Shown in pieces: positions 1 to 39,802 of a stretch of 64,000 nt of DNA; the first letter of the stretch is position 1; the number at the start of each line of letters is the position of its first letter. The notes beneath the pieces were generated by a model that ran no database searches, was not told where the DNA came from, and was given only the letters and a program-made list of their open reading frames with translations. Source of the stretch: Jiella avicenniae (GTDB lineage Bacteria > Pseudomonadota > Alphaproteobacteria > Rhizobiales > Rhizobiaceae); the NCBI RefSeq assembly GCF_021390325.1, contig NZ_JAJUWU010000015.1, forward strand, positions 124,001 through 188,000, in the 5' to 3' direction. Position numbers and translations under genes: made by a program.

Positions 1-705
1 CGCCTCGCGGAAGCGGTAGCCCACCCCGTAGAGGGTTTCGATCATGTCGAAATCGTCGTCGATCGCCTTGAACTTCTTGCGCAGTCGCTTGATGTGGCTG
101 TCGATGGTGCGGTCGTCGACATAGACCTGTTCGTCATAGGCGGCGTCCATCAGGGCGTCGCGGCTCTTCACCACGCCCGGCCGCATCGCCAGCGAGTGCA
201 AAATGAGAAATTCGGTGACCGTCAGGGTCACGGGCTTACTCTTCCAGGTGCAGGTGTGGCGCTCCTGGTCCATCACCAACTGGCCGCGCTCCAGGGAGGA
301 TTCCGGGGCTGCCGTCGCGCCGGGCTTGGCCGTGACGTCCCGCGGCGCGCCGCGCCTCAGGATCGCACGGACGCGTTCGACCAGGAGCCTTTGCGAGAAC
401 GGTTTGCGGATATAGTCGTCCGCGCCCATCTTCAGCCCGAAGAGCTCGTCGATCTCCTCGTCCTTGGAGGTGAGGAAGATCACCGGCAGGTCGGACTTCT
501 GGCGCAGGCGGCGCAAGAGTTCCATCCCGTCCATGCGCGGCATCTTGATGTCGAAGATGGCGAGATGCGGCGGGCTCGATTGCAGCCCCTCCAGCGCGGA
601 TGCGCCGTCGGTGTAGGTCTCGACCCGATAACCCTCGTTTTCCAAAGCAATCGAGACGGACGTCAGAATGTTTCGGTCGTCGTCCACGAGGGCGATTGTC
701 GGCAT
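1..705 (-). CDS. chvI: ChvI response regulator, C-terminus cut by the window edge
   Basis: This is an OmpR/PhoB-type two-component regulator, the partner of the membrane kinase ChvG (ExoS) in rhizobia, which controls envelope, acid and symbiosis or virulence genes. The receiver domain (residues 1-120) shows the acidic pocket DDD at 8-10, the phospho-acceptor Asp52 in FDIKMP and the switch Lys101 in RKPF. The winged-helix DNA-binding domain fills the rest and ends in the family motif GVGYRFREA at base 1, so only a few C-terminal residues are missing. The start is the ATG at 705, which gives the usual N-terminus [10 protein letters not shown]. Divergent placement against pckA is the normal Hyphomicrobiales order; chvG would be expected just outside the window. 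Confidence 0.93.
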
Positions 706-1340
706 TTCAAACTTCTCCAGTCTTCGATCCGGCTGCAGTTCGCAATGCGTGCCGCACGGTGAAGGCCGCCGGATCTGGCGTGGCGGAGGCGCGACCGGCC
801 GGCGCTGCAGGCTCGCCTGCCTCCGCCGATTTCGAACCATGCCATCGCATGAGATAAGCCCCTTACTCGACATCAATCCGCATAAAAATGTGGCACGCCG
901 CGAAATCGGCAACGGGGCCCGATGTTATGGCCTCGATGCGTCTGCCGGGCGGCTCGATCCGGCTCGTCCCGAAGCTTCGGCCGCGCCATCTCGGCGTCGC
1001 GACCCATCTTTTCGCTGACGCTCACGAGGCGCGTCGCCGAGGCTGATCGACGCGCATTATAACAGAAGACGGCGGGAATACAGCCCGGGGGGTGGGGTGG
1101 CGGCCCACGTCGCCTGCCACGCTCGAACGTCCGAGGGCGCCCCGAGGGGGCGATCGTTTCTGGAATGAAGTATCGGTGCGGATTTAAGCATCGAAACGAT
1201 TAGATCACCAGCAAACCCGACTTAATCGATTAAATTACTGATATCGTTAAGTTTTAATGGTGAAAGTGCTTGCGGCTGACTGGGCTGTCGTCTATCTGTC
1301 GTGAAATCCAGGGTGGGTCGAGCGAGTTTTCAGGAGGCGA
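706..1340. promoter_or_regulatory. Divergent chvI/pckA control region
   Basis: These 635 bases contain no convincing gene. They must hold the promoters of both chvI (leftward) and pckA (rightward). The part nearest pckA (about 1180-1265) is clearly A+T-rich against the G+C-rich background and carries a perfect 12-bp palindrome at 1222-1233. The remainder is G+C-rich and shows no further structure I can interpret. Confidence 0.6.
1222..1233. promoter_or_regulatory. Palindrome TTAATCGATTAA, candidate pckA operator
   Basis: A perfect 12-bp palindrome with a central CG, about 110 bases upstream of the pckA start and inside the A+T-rich segment. The shape fits operators of LacI-family regulators, and pckA of Sinorhizobium is known to be controlled by a LacI-family protein, PckR. 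That this is the PckR-type site is inference. Confidence 0.35.
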
Positions 1341-2954
<1,614 letters not shown>

Positions 2955-2969
2955 ATCGACGGGCGACGA

Positions 2970-2993
2970 CGCCGGCGCATCCCTGCGTCGGCG
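2970..2993 (+). terminator. Hairpin downstream of pckA
   Basis: Ten-pair stem (CGCCGGCGCA with TGCGTCGGCG, one G-U pair) around a four-base loop, 16 bases after the pckA stop. No T-run follows, so termination is plausible but not certain. Confidence 0.4.
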
Positions 2994-3247
2994 ATCCGAC
3001 ACTTTCCTGGGAGGGAACACGGCATCGGCTGGCGCTGCATCTTCGCAGGCGCCGGCCGGTGCCGAATGCGTTTGGCGCTCCGGCCGGCCGCGGGGGCGAG
3101 CGCTGCCGGCAGGGCACGACCGTCGCGGCTGTGGTGCGAGATTCGACGGTCGCCCTTCACGCGGCGGCCCCGCCGTGCTTCAGACTGTCCGGAGGAGCCG
3201 CTGCGCCGATCTGCGACCGGGGCAACGGTGCGACGACGGAAAGGACC

Positions 3248-3682
3248 ATGGCCGAAACACGAGATCTCAGGATCAGCAATGCGGTCGTCCTGCCGGAGGC
3301 CGACCTCGAGGAGCAGTTCATCCGGGCGTCCGGGCCGGGCGGCCAGAACGTCAACAAGGTCTCCTCCGCCGTTCAGCTGCGTTTCCTCGCCGGCCGGTGC
3401 GAAGCCATATCACCGGAGGTGAAGCGCCGGCTCCATCGCCTGGCCGGACAGCGGGCCACGAAGGACGGCGACGTGCTGATCGAGGCGTCGCGCTTCCGCA
3501 GCCAGGAGCGCAACCGCGAGGACGCGCGCGAAAGGCTGGCGGATCTGGTGCGCGAGGCGCTGCGGCCCCCGCCGCCGCCGCGCAAGAAGACGCGGCCCTC
3601 CAAAGGCGCGGTCGAGCGCCGCATCAAGGAAAAGAAGGGCCGCTCGAAGATCAAGGCGATGCGCCGCTCCGTCGGAGACTGA
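3248..3682 (+). CDS. arfB: Alternative ribosome-rescue peptidyl-tRNA hydrolase ArfB (YaeJ/ICT1)
   Basis: Releases nascent peptides from ribosomes stalled without a stop codon. This 144-aa protein is the short, codon-independent release-factor type: the catalytic GGQ loop is in RASGPGGQNVNKVSSAV (residues 27-43), and the extended basic tail after residue 105 (KKTRPSKGAVERRIKEKKG and onward) is the part that enters the mRNA channel in ArfB and ICT1. The ATG at 3248 follows GGAAAGG and puts the first family-like residues (LRISNAVVLPE) at the N-terminus. A longer upstream reading frame exists but its sequence is not protein-like. It looks monocistronic. Confidence 0.93.
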   Translation: MAETRDLRISNAVVLPEADLEEQFIRASGPGGQNVNKVSSAVQLRFLAGRCEAISPEVKRRLHRLAGQRATKDGDVLIEASRFRSQERNREDARERLADLVREALRPPPPPRKKTRPSKGAVERRIKEKKGRSKIKAMRRSVGD

Positions 3683-4194
3683 GAAAAGGCCTCGTCCCCG
3701 CCATTGGACGGCCGGGGAGGGTAGCGGCTCCTGCCGGATGCTGCCGTCCGACGGCTGTCTCGACCGAAATCGCTCCGAGGCGAGGGGCGTATGGCCGTCG
3801 CCATCTGCAGCGTGAGACCGGCGCCGCCGACGGGCCCGGCGGATGCGCTACGTTCGAAATCTCGTCCGGATGCGGTCGGCGGGTGGCGTCAACTTGACGC
3901 ATCCTGCAAGTATCGAGGCGAATTCGTTCCTGAATCTTCGAGTGCCATCTCCGCTCGGCTTGCGGCGAAATAGAATTTCGCCATGCCTTGGAGCGCCTTG
4001 CAGTGGATTTTTTCTACAATTTGCGCTGGCGTGGGCCAAAAGATCTGTTCGATCGTGACCGAAGAATGGCGCGAGCCGGGCATGGTCAATAATGCGTGAA
4101 AGAATACTCGGAAGCCGTGACCGTGCGAGTGCGTAACTTCGACATCCTCCGTCGAGAGGGTTCGAAACAACGTTTCAAACGGGAGAACTCGAAC
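3683..4194. other. Gene-free stretch with the fasciclin-gene promoter
   Basis: No coding sequence that I believe. The right part (about 3985-4180) becomes more A+T-rich and presumably holds the promoter and leader of the next gene. An imperfect 21-bp inverted repeat lies at 4160-4180, immediately before the ribosome-binding site. Confidence 0.4.
4160..4180. promoter_or_regulatory. Imperfect inverted repeat overlapping the leader of the fasciclin gene
   Basis: GTTCGAAAC-AAC-GTTTCAAAC: nine-base arms with one mismatch around three bases, ending 14 bases before the ATG. It could be a repressor site or an mRNA hairpin next to the ribosome-binding site. No known factor is assigned. Confidence 0.3.
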
Positions 4195-4803
4195 ATGTTG
4201 AAGTCCATGATCCGTGCCGCCGCCGTCACGACGCTCGTCGCCGCCGGCTCGCTGGCCGTCGCCCCTGCCGCCCTCGCGCAGGACACCATGAAGTCCGACA
4301 CCGGCGCGATGGCCGGCGACATGCCGATGGTCGGCGGCGCACCGATGGATCCGCAGAAGACGATCCCGGAAAATGCCTCGCAGGCCGACAACCTGACCAC
4401 GCTGGTCGCTGCGGTGAAGGCTGCCGGTCTCGTCGAGACGCTGAGCGGCGACGGCCCCTTCACGGTGTTCGCACCGACCAACGCGGCCTTCGAGAAGCTG
4501 CCGGCGGGCACCGTCGACGACCTTCTGAAGCCGGAGAACAAGGACAAGCTGACGAAGATCCTGACCTATCACGTGGTGCCGGCCAAGGCGACCTCCGAGG
4601 CGGCCATGCAGATGATCAAGGACGACGGCGGCGCCCACACGGTGAAGACCGTCGAGGGTGAGCCGATCACCCTGCGCATGGACGGCGACAATCTGGTGGT
4701 CATCGATGCCAGCGGCAACGGCGCGGTGGTGACCCAAGCCGACGTCATGCAGTCGAACGGCGTGGTGCACGTCATCGATACGGTTTTGATGCCGAAGATG
4801 TAA
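4195..4803 (+). CDS. Secreted fasciclin (FAS1) domain protein
   Basis: A 202-aa exported protein. Residues 1-28 form a Sec signal peptide (charged start, hydrophobic VTTLVAAGSLAVAPAALA, cleavage after ALA). A short Met-rich linker follows, then one FAS1 domain: NLTTLVAAVKAAGLVETL, the first conserved block PFTVFAPTNAAFEKLPAG, and the second block DVMQSNGVVHVIDTVLMP at the C-terminus. FAS1 domains mediate adhesion or matrix interactions; related single-domain proteins are widespread in alphaproteobacteria and their role is mostly unknown. The ATG at 4195 follows CGGGAGAA. It is followed by a good intrinsic terminator, so it is probably monocistronic. Confidence 0.9.
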   Translation: MLKSMIRAAAVTTLVAAGSLAVAPAALAQDTMKSDTGAMAGDMPMVGGAPMDPQKTIPENASQADNLTTLVAAVKAAGLVETLSGDGPFTVFAPTNAAFEKLPAGTVDDLLKPENKDKLTKILTYHVVPAKATSEAAMQMIKDDGGAHTVKTVEGEPITLRMDGDNLVVIDASGNGAVVTQADVMQSNGVVHVIDTVLMPKM

Positions 4804-4827
4804 TCGCCGCGAAGAAGTCGGCCTCGC

Positions 4828-4859
4828 CGGTTGGCCACGTTTCCGGCCGGCCGCTTTTT
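4828..4859 (+). terminator. Intrinsic terminator after the fasciclin gene
   Basis: Nine-pair stem (CGGTTGGCC with GGCCGGCCG, including two G-U pairs), eight-base loop, then CTTTTT. It lies 25 bases after the stop codon. Confidence 0.75.
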
Positions 4860-5015
4860 CGGCGACGGGGGCGGGGCAGGGCGTAACGTGCCTTGCCGCG
4901 CCCCCGAACACATTCGTGAAGAGCCGCGGCGCCGCGATCGCTGGCGTCCGGACGAAGACGCACCATCTCAATCCTCGCGCGAACGAGGTGGTGGGCTACC
5001 ATGGAGCTTTTGGCG

Positions 5016-5510
5016 ATGATCAGACGCAATTTTCTCAAGGCCGGTGTTGCCGCCGTCGGTGCCGTGGCGCTGGGGCGCAAGGCGGCGGATGCGGCCGAAG
5101 GCAAGTTTCCGGTGTCCCACACCGAGGCCGAGTGGAAGAAGCTGCTTTCGCCCGACCAGTACGCCGTGCTCCGCCAGGAGGCGACGGAACGGCCGTTTTC
5201 GAGCCCGCTGAACGCCAACAAGAAAGCCGGCGTCTACAACTGCGCCGGCTGCGACACGGCGGTCTATTCGTCGGAGACAAAGTTCGAGTCCGGCACGGGC
5301 TGGCCGAGCTTCTGGGCGCCGATCTCCTCCGAAGCCGTCGGCACGACGACCGACTACAAGCTGATCTATCCGCGCACCGAGGTCCATTGCGCCACCTGCG
5401 GCGGTCATCTCGGCCACGTCTTCGACGACGGCCCGAAGCCGACCGGCAAGCGCCATTGTATCAACGGGGTGGCGCTGAAGTTCAACCCGGGCGCCGCCCA
5501 GGCCTCGTGA
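5016..5510 (+). CDS. msrB: Peptide methionine (R)-S-oxide reductase MsrB with Tat-type signal
   Basis: Reduces methionine-R-sulfoxide in damaged proteins. The N-terminus MIRRNFLKAGVAAVGAVALG carries the twin-arginine pattern RRNFLK before a hydrophobic stretch, so the protein is probably exported to the periplasm. The two zinc CxxC pairs are present (NCAGC and HCATC), with GTGWPSFW, GGHLGHVFDDGP and the catalytic Cys in RHCINGVALKF. It is a Cys enzyme, not a selenoprotein. The start at 5016 is chosen because GGAG at 5003-5006 is well placed and it puts RR at residues 3-4; an in-frame ATG at 5001 would add five residues. Confidence 0.92.
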   Translation: MIRRNFLKAGVAAVGAVALGRKAADAAEGKFPVSHTEAEWKKLLSPDQYAVLRQEATERPFSSPLNANKKAGVYNCAGCDTAVYSSETKFESGTGWPSFWAPISSEAVGTTTDYKLIYPRTEVHCATCGGHLGHVFDDGPKPTGKRHCINGVALKFNPGAAQAS

Positions 5511-5595
5511 CGAGCCGCGCTTGACGGCGCGCCCGTCCGCCAGAAGGAAGGATGACGGGCCGGACCCGTTGGGATCCCGCGATCGGAGCCCGGCA

Positions 5596-5634
5596 GGACC
5601 TGCGGCTTGCGAACCGGGCGGCAGGTCCGTTTCT
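5596..5634 (+). terminator. Hairpin with T-rich tail downstream of msrB
   Basis: GGACCTGC (5596-5603) pairs with GCAGGTCC (5621-5628), with a small inner CGG/CCG helix, followed by GTTTCTTC. Distance to the msrB stop is 85 bases. Confidence 0.5.
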
Positions 5635-5788
5635 TCAACTCTTCTGAACATTTTCGGCCCAGGATGGGGAAGGCAGCTTCGCTCGCGACATTGAAGCGGC
5701 ACCCGGCCGTCGCCATATGATCGGTTGTGCGGACGGTGCCGCTTACGGGCCGTCGCCTGTGAAGTCGCTTGAACGAGGGCTTTGACCG

Positions 5789-6241
5789 ATGTCTCGCATG
5801 ACGCCTTTCTCCAGCCCGTTGATGCTCGGTTTCGACAGCGTCGAGAAGACGCTCGAGCGGATCGCCAAGGGCGGTGACGGCTATCCCCCGTACAACATCG
5901 AGCGCATCCGCAAGGACGCTTCGCTGGATCGGGACCGGGACTGCGATGCCGGGGACCTCATCCGCATCACGCTTGCCGTCGCCGGCTTCCTGCCGGAAGA
6001 CCTCGAAGTGACCGTGGAGGAGAACCAGCTCCTCATCCGCGGCCGCCAGAGCGAAGAGGACGGCGGGCGCGAATACCTGCATCGCGGCATCGCCGCGCGG
6101 CAGTTCCAGAAGTGTTTTCTGCTTGCCGATGGCATGCGGGTGATCGGGGCGCAGCTGAAGAACGGGCTGCTCCTGATCGATCTGGCGAAACCGGAACCCG
6201 AACGCATCGTCAGGAGAATCGAGATCGCGGTCAACGAATGA
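5789..6241 (+). CDS. Small heat-shock protein Hsp20 (IbpA type)
   Basis: ATP-independent holdase chaperone that binds unfolding proteins in the cytoplasm. The 150-aa protein has the rhizobial N-terminal signature PYNIERI (residues 31-37), the alpha-crystallin domain from about 50 to 140 (ITLAVAGFLPEDLEVTVEEN, then GRQ and EYLHRGIAARQFQKCFLL) and the conserved segment AQLKNGLLLIDL. The variable C-terminal tail is short and lacks an obvious IXI motif. It is followed after 34 bases by a DUF1150 gene, an arrangement common in this order, so they are probably co-transcribed. A heat-shock leader (ROSE element) could be sought in 5640-5788 but I could not recognise one by eye. Confidence 0.93.
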   Translation: MSRMTPFSSPLMLGFDSVEKTLERIAKGGDGYPPYNIERIRKDASLDRDRDCDAGDLIRITLAVAGFLPEDLEVTVEENQLLIRGRQSEEDGGREYLHRGIAARQFQKCFLLADGMRVIGAQLKNGLLLIDLAKPEPERIVRRIEIAVNE

Positions 6242-6275
6242 GCGGATCTCGCGTTTGCCTTGAAAGGAGACGACC

Positions 6276-6530
6276 ATGACCGATCATGTTTCCGGCAATC
6301 CTGCCTCCTTCGACCTCGCCGCCTTTGGCGAGGGGCAGATCGCCTATATGCGCCAGATGTCTTCCGACGAGATGCGCGCCCGGTTTCCCGCCGCCAAGTC
6401 GATCCAGCCCGGGCTGAAGCTCTGGGCGCTGTTCGGCGCCGACGGGACCCCGCTGGCCGTCTCCGACGACCGGTCGAGCATCTTGGCCAGCGCTTCCCAA
6501 AACGAGCTCCAGACCGTCAGCCTCCACTGA
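6276..6530 (+). CDS. DUF1150 family protein
   Basis: An 84-aa cytoplasmic protein of the DUF1150 family. No catalytic motif is visible; the conserved part is GQIAYMRQMSSDEM followed by GLKLWALFGADGTPLAVSDD and an Ala/Ser-rich end. The family sits directly downstream of hsp20 genes in many alphaproteobacteria, so a role in heat-shock proteostasis is inferred from context only. The ATG at 6276 follows an excellent AAAGGAG. Confidence 0.88.
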   Translation: MTDHVSGNPASFDLAAFGEGQIAYMRQMSSDEMRARFPAAKSIQPGLKLWALFGADGTPLAVSDDRSSILASASQNELQTVSLH

Positions 6531-6547
6531 CGGCGGATGGTCCGTTC

Positions 6548-6574
6548 AGCGACGACCCCGTCGGGGCCGTCGCT
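6548..6574 (+). terminator. Hairpin after the hsp20-DUF1150 operon
   Basis: AGCGACG (6548-6554) pairs with CGTCGCT (6568-6574); inside it CCCC pairs with GGGG across a GTC loop, with one internal mismatch. There is no T-run. It starts 17 bases after the DUF1150 stop. Confidence 0.45.
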
Positions 6575-6732
6575 GCCGGGACGTCTGCTCGACGCCGTCG
6601 AGGCGGGTCAAGAAGGGGTGATCTGCGGTCTCAACTCGACGGTCCGGCAGGTGGAGGTATCTTCGCCCAGCCGCGCGCTACGCGCCCCCCTTCGGATAGC
6701 CGCGGCGACGGAAGAAACGGGATCTCGGACGC

Positions 6733-7518
6733 TCAGGCCGCCATCATCGAAGTCTCGGGCTTTTTCGCACCCGTCATCAACGCCACCGCGTCGTTCATCG
6801 TCGCCATTTTCGGATCGACGACGCAAAGCCGTTTGCCGAGCCGGTGCACGTGGATGCGATCGGCGACCTCGAACACGTGCGGCATGTTGTGAGAGATCAG
6901 GACGATCGGCAGGCCGCGGGAGCGGACGTCCTGGATCAGTTCCAGGACCTTGCGCGATTCCTTGACGCCCAATGCCGCCGTCGGCTCGTCGAGGATGATC
7001 ACCTTCGAGCCGAACGCGGCCGCGCGTGCAACGGCGACGCCCTGGCGCTGGCCGCCGGACAGGGTCTCCACCGCCTGGGCGATGTTCTGGATGGTCATCA
7101 GCCCTAGATCGGAGAGCTTTTCGCGGGCGATGCGCTCCATCGCCTTGCGGTCGAGCATCCGCAGATATTTGCCGGCGAAGCCGCTTTTCCGGATTTCGCG
7201 GCCGAGGAACATGTTGTCGGCGATCGACAGGGCCGGCGACAGGGCAAGGTTCTGATACACGGTCTCGATGCCGGCTTCGCGCGCCTCCATCGGCGAGGTG
7301 AAGCGCACGAGTTCGCCGTTCAGCCGGATCTCCCCCTCGTCGGGTACGACTGCGCCCGACAGGGTCTTGATCAGCGACGACTTGCCGGCGCCGTTGTCGC
7401 CGATCACGGCGAGGATTTCGCCGGGGTAGAGATCGAAGTCGGCATGGTCGATGGCGGTGACGCGCCCGTAGTGCTTGACGATGTTGCGCCCGGAAAGGAC
7501 GGGTTGCCTGGCGCTCAT
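6733..7518 (-). CDS. frcA: Sugar (fructose-type) ABC transporter ATPase
   Basis: The ATP-hydrolysing subunit of a CUT2-type sugar importer. At 261 aa it has a single nucleotide-binding domain, like Sinorhizobium FrcA and unlike the double-domain RbsA/XylG type. Walker A is GDNGAGKSS, the signature is LSGGQRQGVAVARA, Walker B is VIILDEPTAALG and the switch His is in LISHNMPHV. The ATG overlaps the end of the permease gene by four bases (ATGA), showing tight coupling. In Sinorhizobium a kinase gene (frcK) follows; here the next gene is the unrelated, convergent DUF1150. Confidence 0.88.
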   Translation of the reverse strand: MSARQPVLSGRNIVKHYGRVTAIDHADFDLYPGEILAVIGDNGAGKSSLIKTLSGAVVPDEGEIRLNGELVRFTSPMEAREAGIETVYQNLALSPALSIADNMFLGREIRKSGFAGKYLRMLDRKAMERIAREKLSDLGLMTIQNIAQAVETLSGGQRQGVAVARAAAFGSKVIILDEPTAALGVKESRKVLELIQDVRSRGLPIVLISHNMPHVFEVADRIHVHRLGKRLCVVDPKMATMNDAVALMTGAKKPETSMMAA

Positions 7519-8600
7519 GCCGAAATCCTCCGGATCCATTGGTCGAGTGCGACCGCCAGAATGATCAGACAGCCGGAGGCGAAGAGAACCCATTGCGGAT
7601 CGGCGCCCGCGAGCTTCAGCCCGGTCGCGAAGGTGCCGACGGTCAGGGCGCCGAACAAGGAGCCGAGGATCGTGCCGCGCCCGCCGAAGAGCGAGGTGCC
7701 GCCGATCACCACGGCGGCGATCGAGTCGAGATTGGCCTCGGCGAAGGAGGACGGCGAGATCGACCCGACGCGGCCGATCGCCGCCCATGCGGCGAAGGCG
7801 GCGATGAAGCCGGCGACGACGTAGACCGAAAACACCACCTTGTCCGAGCGGACGCCGGCGAGATCGGCCGCTTCCTTGTCGTCGCCGACGGCATAGACGT
7901 GTCGCCCCCAGGCGGTCAGCCGCATGATGTAGGAAAACACCGCGAAGATCAGGACCATCAGGACGACGGCGTAGATCACCGGGGCGCCCATGATCGTCAG
8001 GTTCCAGCCGCCGATCGAGACGCGTTCGCCGAACAGCTTGAGCAGCGGCGCGGTGGCGTCGATGGCCTGGCTGCGGATCGATTGCGAGCCGGTGTAGAGA
8101 TAGACGGTGGCGAGGACGATCTGCCACATGCCGAGCGTGACGATGAAGGGCGGCAGCCTCACCCGCGTCACCAACAGGCCGGAGATGGCGCCGAGGCCCA
8201 TCCCGACGCCGAAGCCGCCGAGGAGGGCGAAGGGCGCCGGCAGGCCGTAGGTGACGGCGAGATGGCCCATGGCGACGTAGCTGAGAACCATCACGGCGCC
8301 GATCGACAGATCGATGCCGGCGGTCAGGATCACCAGCGTCTGCGCGCAGGCGAGAATGCCGACGATGGAAACCTGCTCGAGGGTGATCTTGATGGCGAGG
8401 CCGGTGATCAGCCGCCCGTCCGTCGCGATGGCGAAGACGATCACCGAGGCGAGCAGGATCAGAACCGGAACGAGCGTCGGATTGTTGTGGAGCAGATGCT
8501 GGATCTGTCCCATCCACGAGCGCTTCGGCCGATCGAACACGGGGCTGCTCGTGTCTGCGTCACGGGCGGAATGCTCGTGATCGGTTGATTGGCTGACCAT
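7515..8600 (-). CDS. frcC: Sugar (fructose-type) ABC transporter permease
   Basis: Membrane subunit of the CUT2 importer, 361 aa. A hydrophilic N-terminus of about 45 residues is followed by 8-10 hydrophobic segments. The family signatures are AGIDLSIGAVMVLSYVAMG near residue 113 and AAVVIGGTSLFGGRGTILGS near 290, the latter forming the contact to the ATPase. The start ATG at 8600 follows AAAGAGGCGAGG. It is separated from frcB by 83 bases containing a strong hairpin and overlaps frcA by four bases. Confidence 0.9.
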   Translation of the reverse strand: MVSQSTDHEHSARDADTSSPVFDRPKRSWMGQIQHLLHNNPTLVPVLILLASVIVFAIATDGRLITGLAIKITLEQVSIVGILACAQTLVILTAGIDLSIGAVMVLSYVAMGHLAVTYGLPAPFALLGGFGVGMGLGAISGLLVTRVRLPPFIVTLGMWQIVLATVYLYTGSQSIRSQAIDATAPLLKLFGERVSIGGWNLTIMGAPVIYAVVLMVLIFAVFSYIMRLTAWGRHVYAVGDDKEAADLAGVRSDKVVFSVYVVAGFIAAFAAWAAIGRVGSISPSSFAEANLDSIAAVVIGGTSLFGGRGTILGSLFGALTVGTFATGLKLAGADPQWVLFASGCLIILAVALDQWIRRISA

Positions 8601-8624
8601 CCTCGCCTCTTTCGATGGAGTGAC

Positions 8625-8648
8625 GGCGCGCCTCGCCTGAGGCGCGCC
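8625..8648 (-). other. Intercistronic stem-loop between frcB and frcC
   Basis: A perfect ten-pair G+C stem (GGCGCGCCTC with GAGGCGCGCC) around four bases, flanked by partly pairing outer arms GACGGC/GCCGTC. Position between binding protein and permease genes is typical of stem-loops that protect binding-protein mRNA and lower downstream expression, which gives excess binding protein. That function is inferred. Confidence 0.6.
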
Positions 8649-8683
8649 TGCCGTCTCGACTGGAGTTCAGTCTCGGAGCGGGA

Positions 8684-9703
8684 TCAACCCCAACAGCGGT
8701 CGAGGCCCTCCGCGACCGGGATCGACGGGACGCCGTCGACGGGCTTGTCGGTGACGAGGTTGACGCCGGTATTGGTGAAGTCGAGGCCCTCCGAGGTCTT
8801 GGGCTTTTCGCCGGTTTCGGCGAATTTGGCGATCGCCTGGATGCCGAGCCGGGCCATGTCGAGGGGATATTGCTGGGACGTCGCCCCGATGACCCCGTCC
8901 TGGACGTTCTTGACGCCCGGGCAGCCGCCGTCGACCGAGACGATCAAAACGTCGCCCGCCCGGCCTGCCGACTGCAGCGCCTCGTAGGCGCCGGCCGCCG
9001 CGGGCTCGTTGATCGTGTAGACGACGTTGATCTCGGGATCCTGCAGGAGCAGGTTCTCCATCGCCCGCAGGCCGCCTTCCTCGTTGCCCTGGGTGACTTC
9101 ATGGCCGACGACGCGCGGGTCGGTCTCGTCGCCCCAGCGCTTCTCGTCGCCGGTGTCGATGCCGAAGCCCTCGAGGAAGCCCTGGTCGCGCAGGACGCCG
9201 ACGGTCGGCTGGCTCTCGTTCAGATCGAGCATGGCGATCTTGGCGTTCTCCGGGTCCTCGACGCTCGCCTTCGCCCAGGCGCCGATCAGCCGGCCGGCTT
9301 CGAAGTTGTCGGTCGCGAAGGTGGCGTCGGCGGCATCGACCGGGTCGAGCGGGGTATCGAGCGCGATCACCAGGATCCCGCGGTCGCGGGCGCGCTTCAC
9401 CACGTCTGTGATGGCCGACGTGTCAGAAGCGGTGATCAGGATGCCCTTCACGCCGTCGGCGATGCAGGTCTCGATGGCGTTGACCTGGCTTTCGTGGTCG
9501 CCGTCGACCTTGCCGGCGTAGGACGAGAGCCGGATGCCGAGCTTCTGCGCTTCGGCGGTGGCGCCTTCCTTCATCTTGACGAAGAACGGATTGATGTCCG
9601 TCTTGGTGATCAGGCAGGCGCCGACGTCTGCAGCCGAGGCGGGGACGGCGAAGAGGGCGCCGGAAGCCAGCATCGATCCGGCGATGAGAGTGCGGATGGT
9701 CAC
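8684..9703 (-). CDS. frcB: Periplasmic sugar (fructose-type) binding protein
   Basis: Substrate-binding subunit of the CUT2 importer. The signal peptide [25 protein letters not shown] ends at about residue 23-25. The mature part is a ribose/fructose-type periplasmic binding fold: [18 protein letters not shown], then [35 protein letters not shown] and [14 protein letters not shown]. The GTG at 9703 is chosen because GGGAGGAA stands 8-9 bases before it and it opens directly into the signal peptide. It is the first gene of frcBCA and is divergent from the ROK regulator. The ligand cannot be fixed from sequence; fructose is suggested by resemblance and gene order. Confidence 0.87.
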
Positions 9704-29171: not shown

Positions 29172-29939
29172 TCAGGCGGGGCTGTTCGATCCGTCTCGCT
29201 TGGCGATCGCGTCCAGAACCCGCGCGGCACCGTCGTCGATCGCCCGATGGATGGCGATGCTTGCTTCCAGCGGTTGTCTTGACCTCAGGGCGTTCAACAA
29301 ATCGTCGTAATTCCTGTGTTCGATCGGCGGTGGGCGTTCGCCCACGAAGAGATAGTTGAAACCAGGGCCCGCCATCAGCCAGAGCATCTCGATCAAGCCG
29401 AGCAGGGTCGGCATGTTCGCGGCCCGATAGAGCACGAAGCGAAATTCCTTGTTGAGCCGAAGCGCAAGATGGGAATCATCCGCCGACCTCGCGGCCAGAT
29501 ACTGCTCGAGCAGGGTCGTCATCAGCTCGATATCGTCCGCGGCGATCCGCTCGGCGGCCTTCGACGCGGCGAGGCCTTCCACCGATTTGCGAACCTCGGC
29601 GATCTCCGAATATTGCTCTCCGGTCAGTCGCGGGACGCGGAACGATTGGGACGGCTCGGCGGTGAGAACGCCGGATGCGGCGAAGCGGACGAGCGCCTCG
29701 CGCACCGGCGTGATGCTCGTGCCCAGGCTCTCGGCGAGTTCACGGGTCACGAGCCGCGCACCGGGCTGCAGCCGGCCTTCGATCAGGGCCTGGCGAAGGG
29801 CTTCTTCGACATGGGTGACGAGGCTCTTGCGTGGCGCCACGGTGATCGGCCCCAACGCGCCTGCTGCTTCCTTCTTCAACCGTTCCGCCTCGTTTCTCGC
29901 AATCCCGTCAGGCGACGCAATGCCTGTCCGGTAAGACAT
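29172..29939 (-). CDS. GntR-family regulator, FCD subfamily
   Basis: A 255-aa repressor. The N-terminal winged helix-turn-helix holds EEALRQALIEGRLQPGARL and TRELAESLGTSITPVREALV, and FRVPRLTGEQYSEIAEVRKS links it to the all-helical FCD sensor domain (about 110-245), which in relatives binds small organic acids or amino acids, often with a metal. It is divergent from the peptide-type ABC cluster with 74 bases between, so it most likely controls that cluster in response to its substrate. Confidence 0.88.
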   Translation of the reverse strand: MSYRTGIASPDGIARNEAERLKKEAAGALGPITVAPRKSLVTHVEEALRQALIEGRLQPGARLVTRELAESLGTSITPVREALVRFAASGVLTAEPSQSFRVPRLTGEQYSEIAEVRKSVEGLAASKAAERIAADDIELMTTLLEQYLAARSADDSHLALRLNKEFRFVLYRAANMPTLLGLIEMLWLMAGPGFNYLFVGERPPPIEHRNYDDLLNALRSRQPLEASIAIHRAIDDGAARVLDAIAKRDGSNSPA

Positions 29940-30013: not shown

Positions 30014-31507
30014 ATGAAACACGTCAGAGCCCTTTTACTGGCAGCCGCAGGGTTGTTGATCCCGGTCTCGCTCGCCACGGCCCAGGAGAGCGAGATCACC
30101 ATCGGGCGGTCGGTTTCGACCACGGCAATGGATCCCGGCTTCCTGCGCGAGGCGGCGACGATCGTCGACAACGTCTTCGACACCCTCGTGATGCGCGACG
30201 AGAACATGCAACTTGTGTCAGGACTCGCTGAGTCGTGGAAGCCGATCGACGACACCACTTGGGAGTTCAAGCTCAAAAAAGGCGTGAAATTTCATAATGG
30301 AGAGGATTTCGATGCCGAGGCGGTGAAGTTCACCATCGATCGTATCATCGATCCGGCCGCGAATTCGCCGACGCTGTCCTACATCCGTACGGTGTCCGGC
30401 GTCGAGGTGGTGGACCCCGAGACGGTCCGCATCACCACCGACGGGCCGGATCCGCTCCTGCCGACGCGGATGAGCCGCTACCCCACCTATATCGTGCCGC
30501 CGGATTACGTGAAGTCGGTCGGCAACGACGAGTTCGCCCGCAAGCCGGTCGGAACGGGGCCTTACGAGTTCGTCGAGTTCATCCCCGATCAGCACGTGAT
30601 CCTGAAGGCCAATCCGGACTATTGGCGCGGCGCGCCTTCGATCGGCAAGGTGACCTTCCGGGCCATTCCCGACGGCACCGCCCGGGTCACGGCGCTCCTG
30701 ACCGGCGAGGCCGATTTCATCGAAAGCGTTCCGGTCGATCTCGCCCCGATGGTCGAACAGAGCCCCGACGCCGACCTCGTGCTGGTCAAGAACGGCGGCC
30801 TGACGGTCTATCTCGGTCTCGTCATGAAGGAGGCGCCGCTCGACGATCTGAAGGTGCGCCAGGCCCTCGACGCGGCCATCGACCGAAAGGGCATCGTCGA
30901 CAACATCCTGCGCGGCATGGCGACGCCGAAGGGCACGCAGGTGGGGCCGGCCGATTTCGGTTATCTCGAGATCCCGCCGACGCCCTACGATCCCGCCAAG
31001 GCAAAGAAACTTCTGGCGGAAGCGGGCTACCCGGACGGCTTTTCCATCAAGATGGAATCGACGCACCGCTACATGAAGGATTCGGAGGTCGCGCAGGCCA
31101 TCGCCCAGCAGTTCGGCGACATCGGGATCCAGGTGGACCAGGAGGTGCTCGACTGGTCGGTCTACACGCAGGAAGTGCCCCGTCCCGGCCCGATCTACAT
31201 GCTCGGCTGGGGATCGACCCAGACCCTCGACGCCGACGCCGCGGTCTATGCCATCATGCGCAGCGGCGAGCCCTATTCGACCGTCGACGTTCCCGAACTC
31301 GACGCGCTGCTCGACGAAAGCCGGAAGATCGTCGACCCCGCGGCACGGGAAAAGGTCCTTCAGGAGATCCAGAAGGTCGCCGCCGAAAAGGTGCCGCTGC
31401 TGACGCTCTATCAGGAGGATGCGCTCTACGGCAAAGCCAGGGACGTCGTCTTCGCCGGACGGCCCGACGCCCGCATCCCGGTCTACGACATCAGGCTGAC
31501 CCGATAG
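30014..31507 (+). CDS. ABC transporter substrate-binding protein, family 5 (peptide/opine type)
   Basis: A 497-aa periplasmic binding protein of the DppA/OppA class. The signal peptide is residues 1-23 (ALLLAAAGLLIPVSLATAQ). Family landmarks are LVSGLAESWKPIDDTTWEF, KKGVKFHNGEDFDAEAVKF, RKPVGTGPYEF and the C-terminal DARIPVYDIRLTR. The ligand may be a peptide, an opine, a modified amino acid or another small molecule; the family does not tell. It starts the operon permease-permease-M20-OCD-ATPase. The ATG at 30014 follows GGAG. Confidence 0.9.
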   Translation: MKHVRALLLAAAGLLIPVSLATAQESEITIGRSVSTTAMDPGFLREAATIVDNVFDTLVMRDENMQLVSGLAESWKPIDDTTWEFKLKKGVKFHNGEDFDAEAVKFTIDRIIDPAANSPTLSYIRTVSGVEVVDPETVRITTDGPDPLLPTRMSRYPTYIVPPDYVKSVGNDEFARKPVGTGPYEFVEFIPDQHVILKANPDYWRGAPSIGKVTFRAIPDGTARVTALLTGEADFIESVPVDLAPMVEQSPDADLVLVKNGGLTVYLGLVMKEAPLDDLKVRQALDAAIDRKGIVDNILRGMATPKGTQVGPADFGYLEIPPTPYDPAKAKKLLAEAGYPDGFSIKMESTHRYMKDSEVAQAIAQQFGDIGIQVDQEVLDWSVYTQEVPRPGPIYMLGWGSTQTLDADAAVYAIMRSGEPYSTVDVPELDALLDESRKIVDPAAREKVLQEIQKVAAEKVPLLTLYQEDALYGKARDVVFAGRPDARIPVYDIRLTR

Positions 31508-31510
31508 GCG

Positions 31511-32350
31511 ATGACGCGGCTCCGGAGCGTTCGCCGCAACGCCGACGCGATCCTCGCCCTGACGCTTCTGGCGGCCGTCGCGGCGATGTGCGTCATCGTC
31601 CCGCTGCTCTGGCCGCTCGATCCGACCCGCGGCGTCCTTTCCGCGACGTTCCGGCCGCCGATGTCGGTGGTGGACGGCCAGTTGCATCCGCTCGGCACGG
31701 ACCAGCTCGGGCGCGACCTTCTCGCCCGGCTCGGCCTCGGAACGGCGATCTCGCTCGGCATCGTCCTTCTCGCCGCCGTCATCTCGGTCGTCACCGGCAC
31801 GCTTCTCGGCATGGTGGCGGGCTATTTCGGCGGCTTCGTCGACGTTCTCGTCATGCGCGCCGTCGACGTGCAACTGGCGATCCCTTTCATCCTGCTGATT
31901 CTGCTCGTCGTCGCCGTGGTCGGCCCGTCGATCGGCAATCTCGTCCTCGTGCTCGGCGTGACCGGCTGGGCGGTCTTCGCCCGTGTCGCGCGGGCCAGGA
32001 CGCTCGAGCTGCGCGAGCTCGAATATGTCGAGGCCTGTCGCGCCATCGGCGTCTCGGACGCCGCGATCCTCGCCCGCCACGTCCTGCCCAACATCCTCGG
32101 CCCGCAGACCGTGCTCCTGACGCTCGACCTGCCGCGGCTGATCATCCTCGAAGCCTCGGTGGGATTTCTCGGCCTCGGCGTCCAGCCGCCGACGCCGACG
32201 CTCGGCAATCTCATCGGCGAGGGGCGATCCTTCATCCTCCTGGCGAACTGGCTGGTGCTCTATCCGGGCCTTGCGATCGGCGCGCTCGTGGTCGGCTGCA
32301 ACCTTCTCGGCGACTTTCTGGTCCGCCAGGCCGACCGCAGGGCAGCGTAG
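31511..32350 (+). CDS. ABC transporter permease, DppC type
   Basis: A 279-aa inner-membrane subunit. It shows the DppC N-terminal segment (ALTLLAAVAAMCVIVPLLW), the HPLGTDQLGRDLLAR motif and the coupling loop EYVEACRAIGVSDAAILARH followed by VLPN, which contacts the ATPase. Six membrane spans are likely. It begins three bases after the binding-protein stop. The C-type permease precedes the B-type here, which reverses the usual dpp/opp order. Confidence 0.9.
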   Translation: MTRLRSVRRNADAILALTLLAAVAAMCVIVPLLWPLDPTRGVLSATFRPPMSVVDGQLHPLGTDQLGRDLLARLGLGTAISLGIVLLAAVISVVTGTLLGMVAGYFGGFVDVLVMRAVDVQLAIPFILLILLVVAVVGPSIGNLVLVLGVTGWAVFARVARARTLELRELEYVEACRAIGVSDAAILARHVLPNILGPQTVLLTLDLPRLIILEASVGFLGLGVQPPTPTLGNLIGEGRSFILLANWLVLYPGLAIGALVVGCNLLGDFLVRQADRRAA

Positions 32351-32355
32351 GTTCC

Positions 32356-33276
32356 TTGAAAGCTCTGTCCTTCATCGCCGGCCGCGCGCTGCAGGGGCTG
32401 ATCGTCATGATCGGGGTCTCGCTGATCGTCTTCTTCGCGCTGTTCCTGACGGGCGACCCGGCGGCGGTGATGATGCCGCCGGAGGCGAGCCGTGCCGAGA
32501 TCGAGGCATTCCGCCACGCCATGGGCTACGACGATCCGATCCTCGTCCAGTATCTGCGTTTCGCCGGCGGGGTTCTTTCCGGCGACTTCGGCCGGTCGCT
32601 GCGCTTCCAGCGGCCGGCGGTCGACCTCCTGTTCGAGCGGTTGCCGGCGACGGCGCTCCTCGCGATCACCGCGCTGCTCTGGAGTTCCCTGCTCGGCTTC
32701 GTCCTCGGCACCGTCGCCGCGGTCCGGCAGAACGGCGCCGTCGACTTCGTCATCCGCGTGATCTCGCTGCTCGGTCAGGCGATCCCGGTGTTCTGGCTGG
32801 CGCTGCTTCTCATCATCGTGTTTTCGTTGAACCTGCGCTGGCTGCCGAGCGGCGGCATCGGCACGGCGCAGCAGCTGATCCTGCCCTCGCTCGCTCTCGG
32901 CGCCTATTATTTCAGTGCGATCACCCGGCTCGTCCGGGCGAGCCTCATCGAGGTGCTGGGCGAGAACTACATCCGCACGGCGAGAGCCAAGGGCATTTCC
33001 AACTTTCGGATCGTCGTCCACCATGCGCTCCGCAATGCGCTGATCCCGGTCCTGACCGTCCAGGGCATGTATTTCGCCTCGCTGCTCGGCGGTGCGCTGA
33101 TCACCGAGATCATCTTCGCCTGGCCCGGGATCGGTCGGCTGGCGGTGGACTCGATCCAGACGAAGGATTTTCCGGTGGTGCAGGCAGTCGTCCTCTTCGC
33201 GGCCTTCACCTTCGTCGTGACGAACTTCCTCGTCGACGTCGCCTATGTCTTCCTCAATCCGAGGATCCGTCTTTGA
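32356..33276 (+). CDS. ABC transporter permease, DppB type
   Basis: A 306-aa inner-membrane subunit with the DppB start (IAGRALQGLIVMIGVSLIVF), GDPAAVMMPPEAS and DFGRSLRFQRPAVDLLFERL, and the coupling motif ENYIRTARAKGISNFRIVVH. Six membrane spans are likely. The start is TTG at 32356, five bases after the previous stop with only a weak ribosome site, so translation is probably coupled. No ATG or GTG would give a complete first helix. Confidence 0.88.
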   Translation: MKALSFIAGRALQGLIVMIGVSLIVFFALFLTGDPAAVMMPPEASRAEIEAFRHAMGYDDPILVQYLRFAGGVLSGDFGRSLRFQRPAVDLLFERLPATALLAITALLWSSLLGFVLGTVAAVRQNGAVDFVIRVISLLGQAIPVFWLALLLIIVFSLNLRWLPSGGIGTAQQLILPSLALGAYYFSAITRLVRASLIEVLGENYIRTARAKGISNFRIVVHHALRNALIPVLTVQGMYFASLLGGALITEIIFAWPGIGRLAVDSIQTKDFPVVQAVVLFAAFTFVVTNFLVDVAYVFLNPRIRL

Positions 33277-34649
33277 AGCCCGTCTCGCACGCCATGGCCG
33301 AGCGGGTGCTGACGGATCGCGCCCTGGAACTGACCCGGGCGTGGTGCGCCATCCCCTCGGTCAGCGGGAATCCGGCCGGGCTGAAGCGGCACGCCGACGC
33401 CCTGACGGACTGGCTCTGCACGGACCTCGGCGCCGAGATCGTCTCGGCCGCATCGCGCGGCGGCCGGCCGCCGCTGATCCATGCGCGGCTCGACGCCGGC
33501 GCGGCGAACACCGTGATCCTCTACAACATGTACGACGTGATGCCGGCCGACGCCGCGGCCTGGCAGGTCCCACCCTTCGAAGGCGGCATCGTCGATCTCG
33601 ACGGCATCGGGCCGAGCTTCGTCGCGCGGGGTGCGGAGAACAACAAGGGGCCGCTCGCCGGCATGCTGGCGGTGATCAAGGATCTCGCCGACCGGGGCGT
33701 TCTGCCGGTCAATGTCGAGATCCTGCTCGAAGGCGAGGAGGAGAGCGGCAGCGGGGCGCTGCGCGGCTATCTGGGCGATCCCGATTGCCCCGTCCGGCCG
33801 GCGCTCGGCGGGCTGTTTCCCTCCTTCTGCGAATATGGCGGCGGGCCGCCGCGGCTTTATCTCGGCTTTTCCGGGATCGCCAAGGGCCGAATCCGCGTCG
33901 AGGGCGGAGACTGGGGCGGGCCGTCGGCGCCGATCCATTCGAGCAACGCCCCGTGGATCGCCAATCCGGCGAGCCGTCTCGTCGAAGCGCTGGCGCTGTT
34001 CGGGGAGCCGCCGACCGGTCGGCTCGGGGCCGTCGAACTGGACGACGAAGCGAGGGCGCTCGTCGCCGAACTCGCCACGACCTTCGACCCCGAGGCCGAG
34101 CTGCGGTTCCGCAAGACGACACGCTATGCCCAGGGCGGCGATGCCGAGGCGCTGCTGGCTCACGTGCTGACCACGGCGTCGGCGACCATCTCCTCCCTCG
34201 CCACCGACCCGGCCGCCGGCGATGCGGTGATCCCGCGATCCGCCGAAGCGGGCTTCGACCTGCGCTGCCCGCCGGGGCTCGATCCCGCGACGTTTCTGGA
34301 GGCGTACCGCGCCAGACTGGCCGAAGCCCGGCTCGACGGCGTCGTCCTCGCCGTCGCCGACGTCTATCCGGGCCATCGCTTCGCCCCCCATTCGGCCGGT
34401 GTCGCGGCGCTGATCGAGGCCTATGCGCAGACTGCCGCGGCGCCGCAGATCTGGCCCTGGGCGATCGGCGCCGCGCCGGCCCATGCCTTCGCGCCGCATG
34501 CCGGCTCGTTCCTGATCGGCGGGGCAGGGCGGGGCGGCAACGCCCATGGCGTCGACGAATTCCTCACCCTCGAGGGCTATCCCCGCTTCCTGAAATCCGT
34601 CGAACTCTGGCTCTGCGCCATGGGCCGGGCGGAAGGCGGGGCCGGATGA
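33273..34649 (+). CDS. M20-family metallopeptidase homologue with altered metal site
   Basis: A 458-aa protein with the carboxypeptidase G2/carnosinase (M20) fold. The catalytic Glu pair is kept in LLEGEEESGSG, as are IHSSNAP at the dimer contact and the last His in GNAHGVDEF. Two canonical dinuclear-zinc ligands look replaced: the usual YGHxDVxP reads YNMYDVMP (His to Met) and the bridging Asp in RGxxDxKGP reads RGAENNKGP (Asp to Asn). It may be an unusual one-metal enzyme or have another role. TTG at 33273 is chosen because GAGG is eight bases upstream; an ATG at 33294 has no ribosome site. It overlaps the permease end and the next start by four bases each. Confidence 0.82.
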   Translation: MKPVSHAMAERVLTDRALELTRAWCAIPSVSGNPAGLKRHADALTDWLCTDLGAEIVSAASRGGRPPLIHARLDAGAANTVILYNMYDVMPADAAAWQVPPFEGGIVDLDGIGPSFVARGAENNKGPLAGMLAVIKDLADRGVLPVNVEILLEGEEESGSGALRGYLGDPDCPVRPALGGLFPSFCEYGGGPPRLYLGFSGIAKGRIRVEGGDWGGPSAPIHSSNAPWIANPASRLVEALALFGEPPTGRLGAVELDDEARALVAELATTFDPEAELRFRKTTRYAQGGDAEALLAHVLTTASATISSLATDPAAGDAVIPRSAEAGFDLRCPPGLDPATFLEAYRARLAEARLDGVVLAVADVYPGHRFAPHSAGVAALIEAYAQTAAAPQIWPWAIGAAPAHAFAPHAGSFLIGGAGRGGNAHGVDEFLTLEGYPRFLKSVELWLCAMGRAEGGAG

Positions 34650-35632
34650 TCGCGATCCGCTATCTGTCCCGCGCCGACGTGATCGCCGCCGGCGGTGCGG
34701 ATTTTCGCCTGGCGGTCGAGGACGTGCGGGCGGCGACGCGGTTGTTGCGGGCGGGCGAAGCGTCGATGGTCGCCGAAAGCGTCCTCCCCGTCAGCTGCGA
34801 CGCCCGCGAAAACGCCTACGGCCTGCCGGCCTCGCTCGGCGGCGCCATCGATGCCGCCGGGCTCAAATGGGCGATGCACCGGGCAGCACCCCTCGGCGAC
34901 CGGCCGAGCATCACCAGCGCCACCTTCGTCAACCGGCTGAGCGACGGCCGGCCGCTCGGCCTCGTCGAGAGCGCGCTGCTGACGCGCATGCGCACGGCCG
35001 CCGTCACGGCGGTCGCCATGGAGATGCTGCCGAAAGGATCGATCCGATCCGTCGCGGTGCTCGGAGCCGGAGCGCAGGCGCGGGCGCATGTGGAGATGGT
35101 CCGGGCGCTGTTTCCGGAGGTCGCGGAAATCCGCCTTTGGAACCGCACGGCCGGGCGGCGCGACGCACTGCTTGCCGAGGTCTTCGAAGGCGAAGACCCG
35201 GCGCTCCGTCCCGCCGAGACGATCCGGGCGGCGGTGGAGCCGGCCGACGTCGTCCTCTGCTGCACGACGTCGCCCGAACCGCTCCTCGGGCCGGACGTCG
35301 TCCGCGCCGGCCGGCTGGTCGTCCAGATCGGCTATCACGAGGTGTTCTTCGACGCGATCGATGCCTTCGACCACGTCGTCGTCGACCTTTGGGGCGACTT
35401 CGCCGATCGGAGCGCCAAGAGCCTTTTCAAGATGTACAGGGCCGGTCGGTTCGAGCCCGGCCGGGTCGCCGCCGACCTCGCCGCCGTCGTCGTCGACGGC
35501 TGGCGTCCTCCAGCCGGGGCGTCGGTCTACGGGTCGAGCTTCGGGCTCAACCTGTTCGACATCGCACTCGCTGCCCGCGTGCTGCGGCGCGCAGAGGCGG
35601 AGGGGATCGGCGCCCTCCTGCCGTTCGTCTGA
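34646..35632 (+). CDS. Ornithine cyclodeaminase / mu-crystallin family protein
   Basis: A 328-aa NAD(P)-dependent protein. The Rossmann motif is VAVLGAGAQARAHVEMV near residue 140. Substrate-site residues of the family are seen as Lys in GLKWAMHR, Arg in ALLTRMRTAAVTAVA, and Asp in VVDLWGDFADR. Members act as ornithine cyclodeaminase, imine (Delta-1-pyrroline or piperideine carboxylate) reductases, opine-type or SbnB-like dehydrogenases. Operon position between an M20 protein and importer ATPases suggests processing of an imported amino-acid derivative. It overlaps the M20 gene (ATGA). Confidence 0.85.
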   Translation: MIAIRYLSRADVIAAGGADFRLAVEDVRAATRLLRAGEASMVAESVLPVSCDARENAYGLPASLGGAIDAAGLKWAMHRAAPLGDRPSITSATFVNRLSDGRPLGLVESALLTRMRTAAVTAVAMEMLPKGSIRSVAVLGAGAQARAHVEMVRALFPEVAEIRLWNRTAGRRDALLAEVFEGEDPALRPAETIRAAVEPADVVLCCTTSPEPLLGPDVVRAGRLVVQIGYHEVFFDAIDAFDHVVVDLWGDFADRSAKSLFKMYRAGRFEPGRVAADLAAVVVDGWRPPAGASVYGSSFGLNLFDIALAARVLRRAEAEGIGALLPFV

Positions 35633-35651: not shown

Positions 35652-37493
<1,842 letters not shown>

Positions 37494-39607: not shown

Positions 39608-39802
39608 ATCGGCAAGTCCGAGACTTTCCGGGGCCGTGCATGGTTCTTTCGCGCGATCCGGTCCGAAAGGTCTGCAACTTTTCGGGATCGTGCATTGGTT
39701 TTGCGCACGATCTGGCCCGAAAGGTCTGCAACTTTTCGGGATCGTGCATTGGTTTTGCGCACGATCTGGTCCGAAAAGTCTGCAACTTTTCGGGATCGTG
39801 CT
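39608..39802. repeat. Tandem 54-bp palindromic repeat array
   Basis: Two near-identical 54-bp units at 39662-39715 and 39716-39769, a 33-bp partial third unit from 39770, and a diverged unit before them (39608-39661). Each unit can form two hairpins: CCGAAAAGT/ACTTTTCGG around CTGCA (perfect at 39771-39793) and GATCGTGC with GCACGATC. Translation of the array gives only a repetitive artefact. It fills nearly all of the 327-base space between minE and the next small gene. Confidence 0.9.

Follow-up and report, generated by a model that had tools for sequence, protein, structure and literature searches.

An M20-fold protein of Jiella avicenniae lacking the ligands of metal site 2, its clade and its gene cassette

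The stretch of DNA analysed here, referred to as the window, comprises 64,000 nucleotides of Jiella avicenniae (contig NZ_JAJUWU010000015.1, positions 124,001 to 188,000 of the forward strand) and contains a gene for an M20-like protein in which all three ligands of one of the two metal sites are replaced. Enzymes of the M20 family, such as DapE, ArgE, carnosinases and carboxypeptidase G2, are usually regarded as working with two metals. The gene is a single open frame of 458 amino acids when translated from its TTG start, and this start overlaps the stop of the upstream permease gene by 4 bp, an arrangement that recurs in all four annotated plasmid copies. Residue numbers in the following are counted from the ATG at 33294. 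The gene and the codons at issue are:

33273..34649, + strand: M20-like protein lacking metal site 2, with a TTG start at 33273 and an alternative ATG at 33294
33528..33530, + strand: Met79 codon, canonical position of the His ligand of site 2 (from clade counts and profile alignment)
33639..33641, + strand: Asn116 codon, canonical position of the metal-bridging Asp (from clade counts and profile alignment)
33738..33743, + strand: codons of Glu149 (position of the catalytic base) and Glu150 (position of a site-1 ligand), both kept (from alignment)
33822..33824, + strand: Ser177 codon, position of the third site-2 ligand, Asp195 of CN2 (from profile alignment)
34545..34547, + strand: His418 codon, distal His, position of a site-1 ligand, kept (from alignment)

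The protein matches the Pfam profile Peptidase_M20 (PF01546) with 49.4 bits, the cut-off being 24.6, which makes it a member of M20, and it matches the M20_dimer lid profile PF07687 weakly (17.2 bits against 21). In the NCBIfam M20 subfamilies it stays under every cut-off among the 25 of 26 matches listed, the best being PRK06446 (115.5 against 369). An AlphaFold2 model calculated from 57 clade sequences reached a mean predicted local distance difference test score (pLDDT) of 95.6 and a predicted template modelling score (pTM) of 0.92, and aligned across full-length M20 structures. As the closest solved structure Foldseek yielded Sso-CP2, the M20 metallo-carboxypeptidase of Sulfolobus solfataricus (4mmo; template modelling scores 0.84/0.87); next came a pneumococcal M20 peptidase, then CN2 and DUG1. 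Sso-CP2 is also the best sequence match of the clade profile (expectation value E 2.2e-66); it is 24% identical to the window protein and has the YN-YDV context and the lid motif HSSNAP in common with it. With the carnosinase CN2 and the Cys-Gly dipeptidase DUG1 (2zof, 4ruh, 4g1p) the window protein shares the two-domain fold and the positions of the catalytic Glu, the site-1 Glu, the distal His and the lid His. Another M20-like fold, 5-nitroanthranilate aminohydrolase (5k8n and others), stands for non-peptidase chemistry according to the entry titles; it is 13–14% identical to the window protein and no special kinship was seen.

According to PMC6271292, the metal ligands of CN2 are His99, Asp132, Glu167, Asp195 and His445, with Glu166 as catalytic residue, the second zinc of PepD is held by His80, the bridging Asp119 and Asp173, and the metal ligands are common to PepV, CPG2, CN2 and the M28 enzyme AAP. 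An earlier note on this DNA had read the two motifs of the window protein as YNMYDVMP and RGAENNKGP. Translation confirms both letter by letter, with Met79 in place of the His and Asn116 in place of the bridging Asp. The alignment with CN2 bears out the further claim that both changes strike metal ligands, a claim that turned out to be an understatement. The third ligand is lost too: Ser177 aligns with Asp195 of CN2 in the profile alignment, and the comparison with Sso-CP2 places the position one residue off, at the likewise non-acidic Pro176. Sso-CP2 itself has His and Asp in the two motifs and an acidic residue as its third ligand, as against Met, Asn and Pro or Ser in the window protein. 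All three ligands of site 2 (His, bridging Asp, Asp) are therefore replaced, by Met79, Asn116 and Ser177, and two of the five metal ligands of CN2 are left. By fold and homology the protein is an M20 protein, yet it departs at three of the five ligands (His, bridging Asp, Glu, Asp/Glu, His) that characterize the two-metal M20 peptidases. The catalytic Glu ahead of the ligand Glu is present (Glu149), and, as the note had stated for the Glu pair and the distal His, Glu149, Glu150 and His418 are all in place, together with the lid His215 and Arg324.

Nine other genomes of the genus were searched; seven of them have the M20-like gene (73–85% identity), each copy with both motifs. A collection of species genomes was then scanned for YNMYDVM or [AS]RGAENNK, one motif being sufficient for a locus, which gave 75 loci (these, like the other loci named below, carry L numbers), 71 of them with both exact strings, a count to be read with the reservation that a scan by motif inflates the conservation of whichever motif found a locus. 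Both motifs are likewise present in the relatives found by protein similarity alone: the seven copies of the genus, L022 and L156, and the plasmid copies L108, L109, L110 and L112, the four examined of six with at least 50% identity (the other two being H1 and H2). The four scanned loci without both strings are L062 (RGTENNKG), L102 (YNTYDVTP), L107 (RGAVNTKGP) and the frameshifted L104. In this last locus, of Acetobacter okinawensis, the motifs lie in different reading frames at about 8000–8350, and it is frameshifted or misassembled.

Residues were counted in 75 rows, made up of the scanned loci minus L104 and minus L107, which was counted apart, plus the window and L022. Asn116, Glu149, Glu180 and Arg324 are present in 75 of the 75 rows, and Met79, Glu150, His215 and His418 in 74. 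All departures come from a single row, L102 of Enterobacter sp. R1 (7983–9272), in which these four residues are changed together. Beside this copy lies a GntR gene, but nothing nearby matches the binding protein or permeases of the importer, or the OCD protein; the copy looks decayed. In the 74 rows without L102, Ser177 and Cys179 are invariant. The ratio of nonsynonymous to synonymous substitution rates (dN/dS) of the gene is 0.21–0.29 against ten relatives. The joint conservation in close homologues, which the earlier note had proposed as a check, is thus seen in the scanned loci as well as in the genus, and close homologues with the normal His and Asp, which it had named as the outcome speaking against its claim, did not occur.

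Protein searches turned up more distant relatives with the same change. One is a group with the motifs YFMYDVKQ/RGAxNQKGP, found in Pseudomonadota and on a single Gemmatimonadota plasmid; inspection of its N-termini by eye points to export. Others are a Cytobacillus protein (YGMYDVQP/RGITNQKGP) and a protein from a metagenome-assembled genome (MAG) of Nitrososphaerota (YNMYDVMP/RGAVNTKGP). In all, the variant sequences span Pseudomonadota, Bacillota, Gemmatimonadota and two archaeal groups. An alignment of 106 rows was made after five of every six main-clade rows had been thinned out; it holds 65 canonical rows (61 distinct sequences) and 41 variant rows (32 distinct). The third-ligand Asp is present in 64 of the 65 canonical rows versus none of the 41 variant rows, where the position varies among ten residues, as expected for a lost site. 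The variant rows have Met79 in 39 cases, Asn116 in 36, Glu149 in 39, Glu150 in 37, His215 in 40, Arg324 in 41 and His418 in 37. Removal of 37 duplicates or near neighbours left 69 rows for a tree, in which a branch with 100/99 support parts 32 variant rows from 37 canonical M20 rows. These 32 include L117, which in a first tree of 54 rows had been labelled canonical for its His and fell inside the variant side, so that this tree called for two changes of label; for the 69-row tree L117 was assigned to the variants after its placement was seen. Both trees are without outgroup, their midpoint rooting serving display alone, and long branches lead to L023, L032 and L119. Since PepV, CPG2, CN2 and AAP share the ligands, a single ancestral loss of site 2 is the simplest reading. 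The window protein thus appears, with good support, to belong to a separate and broadly distributed M20-fold clade that lacks metal site 2; the distinct subfamily surmised in the earlier note is well supported by the joint conservation of the motifs and by the 100/99 branch.

The long-branched L023 has Met79, Asp at 116 and Trp at 177. Because its Glu motif (FEASEMAS) is one residue shorter, the position of the catalytic Glu is uncertain. Hydantoinase/oxoprolinase-type genes and a TRAP-like transporter adjoin this Met-type relative (L184:205-7046; by eye, with a HyuB match found). On the Cytobacillus plasmid (L111:5824-15993) the Met/Asn-type M20 gene has around it three genes of the M14/aspartoacylase type and an oligopeptide ATP-binding cassette (ABC) transporter.

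Another finding was a subgroup of L114, L115 and L117, nested inside the variant side with 100/99 support, in which site 1 is lost as well. In the two haloarchaeal plasmid copies (L114:6977-8458 and L115:6983-8470) the bridging Asp is replaced by Lys, Glu150 by Ile or Leu and the distal His by Glu; Lys116 and Glu418 might possibly form a salt bridge where the metal would sit. In the Bosea plasmid copy (L117:6974-8437) the bridging residue is Ala, residue 150 is Leu, Ala takes the place of the distal His, and residue 79 is His. Glu149, His215 and Arg324 persist in all three.

In the window the gene is part of a cassette which comprises a GntR regulator, a peptide-type ABC transporter, the M20-like protein and a dehydrogenase resembling SbnB and the OCD family:

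29172..29939, - strand: GntR/FCD-type regulator, divergent
30014..31507, + strand: family-5 solute-binding protein (SBP_bac_5) of an ABC importer, from ATG; open frame from 29984
31511..32350, + strand: ABC permease (permC)
32356..33276, + strand: ABC permease (permB), TTG start
34646..35632, + strand: OCD/mu-crystallin family protein, SbnB-like; its ATG overlaps the stop of the M20-like gene by 4 bp
35652..37493, + strand: ABC ATPase made up of two ATP-binding halves (Walker A and signature motif each seen twice, by eye)

Further downstream, a 54-bp tandem repeat of 3.3 copies with 91% matches lies at 39623–39801, behind a MinD-like gene. The cassettes of relatives usually contain in addition a D-cysteine-desulfhydrase-like enzyme and a rhodanese. 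Across the 75 loci, some of them cut by contig ends, matches near the M20-like gene were counted for the OCD-like protein (73), the permeases (70 and 69), the binding protein (66), GntR (65), the ATPase (62), the desulfhydrase-like enzyme (62), the rhodanese (60, of which 53 with at least 40% identity) and a short-chain dehydrogenase/reductase (SDR; 20). Weak HyuA matches occur in 19 of the 75 loci, none with at least 40% identity, and the HyuA/HyuB pair of L112 lies upstream of the cassette regulator, outside the operon. Going downstream on the strand of the M20-like gene, the first gene with a match is OCD in 38 loci and desulfhydrase-like in 35.

Controls against canonical M20 loci rule out that these are chance neighbours. 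In a first control with 65 canonical loci, whose flanks were uneven (385–6979 bases upstream, 152–6982 downstream), no match was found to the OCD, desulfhydrase-like, rhodanese, binding-protein or permease genes (0 of 65 each), while ATPase and SDR matches did occur in three and one. When the flanks of both sets were cut back equally, to 600 upstream and 400 downstream bases, an OCD or desulfhydrase-like gene adjoined 72 of 74 clade loci versus none of 60 canonical ones, and permease B stood beside 69 of the 74 versus none of the 60. The pairwise distances of the M20-like protein correlate with those of six partners (r 0.91–0.94), which is consistent with inheritance as a set.

Carriers of the main-clade cassette include Rhizobium, Pantoea, Rahnella and Acetobacter. 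In the Acetobacter loci L091, L101 and L104 no matching ABC genes were found near the M20-like gene; they hold M20-like, OCD, desulfhydrase-like and rhodanese-like genes, the last with 29–31% identity, and L091 and L101 have a gene resembling the major facilitator superfamily nearby (by eye). Desulfhydrase-like and rhodanese genes have no nearby match in the window or in the relatives L033, L037, L038 and L042. In the entire window genome (97.65% complete) a search run without a positive control gave no desulfhydrase-like match at E<=0.001, and a single rhodanese match of 30% identity lies away from the M20-like locus. Outside the main clade, the M20-like genes of L111, L114 and L117 also adjoin an importer of the family-5 type, and the stand-alone, apparently exported YFMYDVKQ loci (L180, L181, L182) have no cassette-gene matches in the stretches examined and, as judged by eye, no cassette genes close by. 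Two records, titled Mycobacterium sp. KBS0706 (L062) and Anaerolineae MAG (L094), carry cassettes of proteobacterial type, which may reflect wrong labels or bins, or else a move of the cassette.

From its gene content the cassette looks like one for import and breakdown of an amino-acid conjugate. The OCD-like protein, which sits beside an importer, has as its best NCBIfam match SbnB of 2,3-diaminopropionate synthesis, under the cut-off of TIGR03944 (137.8 versus 326.9 bits). For the desulfhydrase-like protein one copy was scored, that of Pantoea L109: its best match is CuyA, a D-cysteate sulfo-lyase (NF052482, 311 versus 450), and it stays just under the cut-off for D-cysteine desulfhydrase TIGR01275 (286.6 versus 289.4); the relatives' protein belongs to Pfam PALP. 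The rhodanese matches 3-mercaptopyruvate sulfurtransferase weakly (60.5 versus 250). The nearest sequences to the binding protein are 5u4o (an ABC binding protein, ligand unstated), YliB/GsiB, and heme- and agrocinopine-binding proteins. These matches do not fix the ligand; the amino acid would perhaps be a sulfur-bearing or beta-substituted alanine. Glutathione or Cys-Gly, thiazolidines, gamma-glutamyl-beta-cyanoalanine, oxalyl-diaminopropionate and opines were considered as substrates, and none was settled upon.

For the M20-like protein itself we tentatively favour, at somewhat short of an even chance, a one-metal amidohydrolase performing one step of such a cassette. The family-5 ABC importer would take up an amino-acid conjugate or peptide-like compound. 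A single metal would be held by Glu150, His418 and perhaps Asn116, Glu149 would activate water against an amide bond, and Arg324 and His215 would anchor the substrate, so that the amino acid would be freed from the imported compound. The SbnB/OCD-like dehydrogenase would then degrade this amino acid, to which most relatives would add a D-cysteine-desulfhydrase-like pyridoxal phosphate enzyme and a two-domain sulfurtransferase; amide hydrolysis and the order of the steps are perhaps as drawn here. Of the three options that the earlier note had offered (one metal, another chemistry, a non-catalytic role), one metal at site 1 is favoured because Glu150 and His418 are invariant in the intact rows and the site-2 ligands are gone. 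Mono-zinc forms of M20 enzymes do exist, as entry titles for DapE state (4o23, 3isz); DapE keeps all ligands in this form, and in the window protein one site is lost by sequence. Several points weigh against the one-metal amidohydrolase of an import and breakdown pathway. The zinc of mono-zinc DapE presumably sits in the very site that is lost here. The members without site-1 ligands suggest that the M20 fold can do without metal. The same residues occur without the cassette in the YFMYDVKQ group, so they are not tied to the cassette pathway. The correlation of distances would also be expected from shared descent alone. The desulfhydrase-like match is missing from the window genome and its rhodanese match, at 30% identity, lies elsewhere, so that the window is where the sulfur reading has least behind it.

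As the nested subgroup lacks site-1 ligands, a metal-free mechanism has to be weighed for the entire clade, with Glu149, His215 and Arg324 carrying out elimination, isomerisation, ring opening or metal-free hydrolysis and Glu150 and His418 binding the substrate. The loss of the site-2 ligands across the clade would fit, as would the retention of these three residues where the site-1 positions are changed too, with a possible Lys116–Glu418 pair in the haloarchaea. We regard this as rather unlikely, since neither Glu150 nor His418 varies in any of the 74 intact main-clade rows and each is present in 37 of the 41 variant rows, as retained ligands would be. A farther-reaching form, also on the unlikely side in our estimate, would have metal lost in two steps, site 2 in a bacterial/archaeal ancestor and site 1 in the nested line. 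A metal-free hydrolase, lyase or isomerase would then rely on Glu149, His215 and Arg324; Met and Asn would occupy the former pocket, and Lys/Glu (haloarchaea) or Ala/Leu (Bosea) would replace the ligands. In the window lineage it would catalyse a committed step in an undescribed pathway, the substrate of which would be a conjugate of a sulfur-bearing or beta-substituted alanine.

With half of the metal centre gone and the M20-like and OCD-like genes together in 73 of 75 loci, the protein might also be a pseudoenzyme that has lost catalysis and binds a ligand or a partner, for example the OCD-like protein, or senses the imported compound. Against a pure pseudoenzyme stand the catalytic Glu149, His215 of the lid and Arg324, which have been kept beyond what ligand binding would seem to need; the dN/dS of 0.21–0.29 likewise speaks against it, so that we consider it improbable. 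More doubtful still is a rebuilt site in the main clade, where Met79, Cys179 and Glu180 would form a new soft-metal site at the old site 2, or Cys179 would act as a nucleophile. Cys179 (74 of 74 rows) and Glu180 (75 of 75) do lie in the loop that bore the third ligand; the wider clade, however, has Ser or another residue instead of Cys179. Finally, the motif departures by themselves could have come from a sequencing error or from decay in one genome, and real decay is seen elsewhere (L102, and the frameshift of L104), but the same residues in all seven gene-bearing genomes of the genus and across the clade refute this, the dN/dS values also opposing it, and leave it a negligible probability.

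Public annotation lists members of the clade as M20/M25/M40 metallo-hydrolases. A literature search gave no recognisable description of clade or cassette among the matches listed, which is weak evidence of novelty as subscription journals lay mostly outside the search; in the passages considered of a 2024 review of metallopeptidase pseudoenzymes, "M20" appears only inside reference identifiers (PMC11266112).

Though it bears the label of an ordinary metal-dependent peptidase, the protein thus probably works differently, and caution is advisable with the automatic annotation of clade members as peptidases. In bacteria such as Rhizobium, Pantoea, Rahnella and Acetobacter the finding marks a conserved cassette of catabolic appearance. 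As the loss of ligands in the clade is graded, down to none left in some members, the need of the M20 fold for metal becomes testable, and the clade offers a route to study how a metalloenzyme becomes metal-poor or metal-free.

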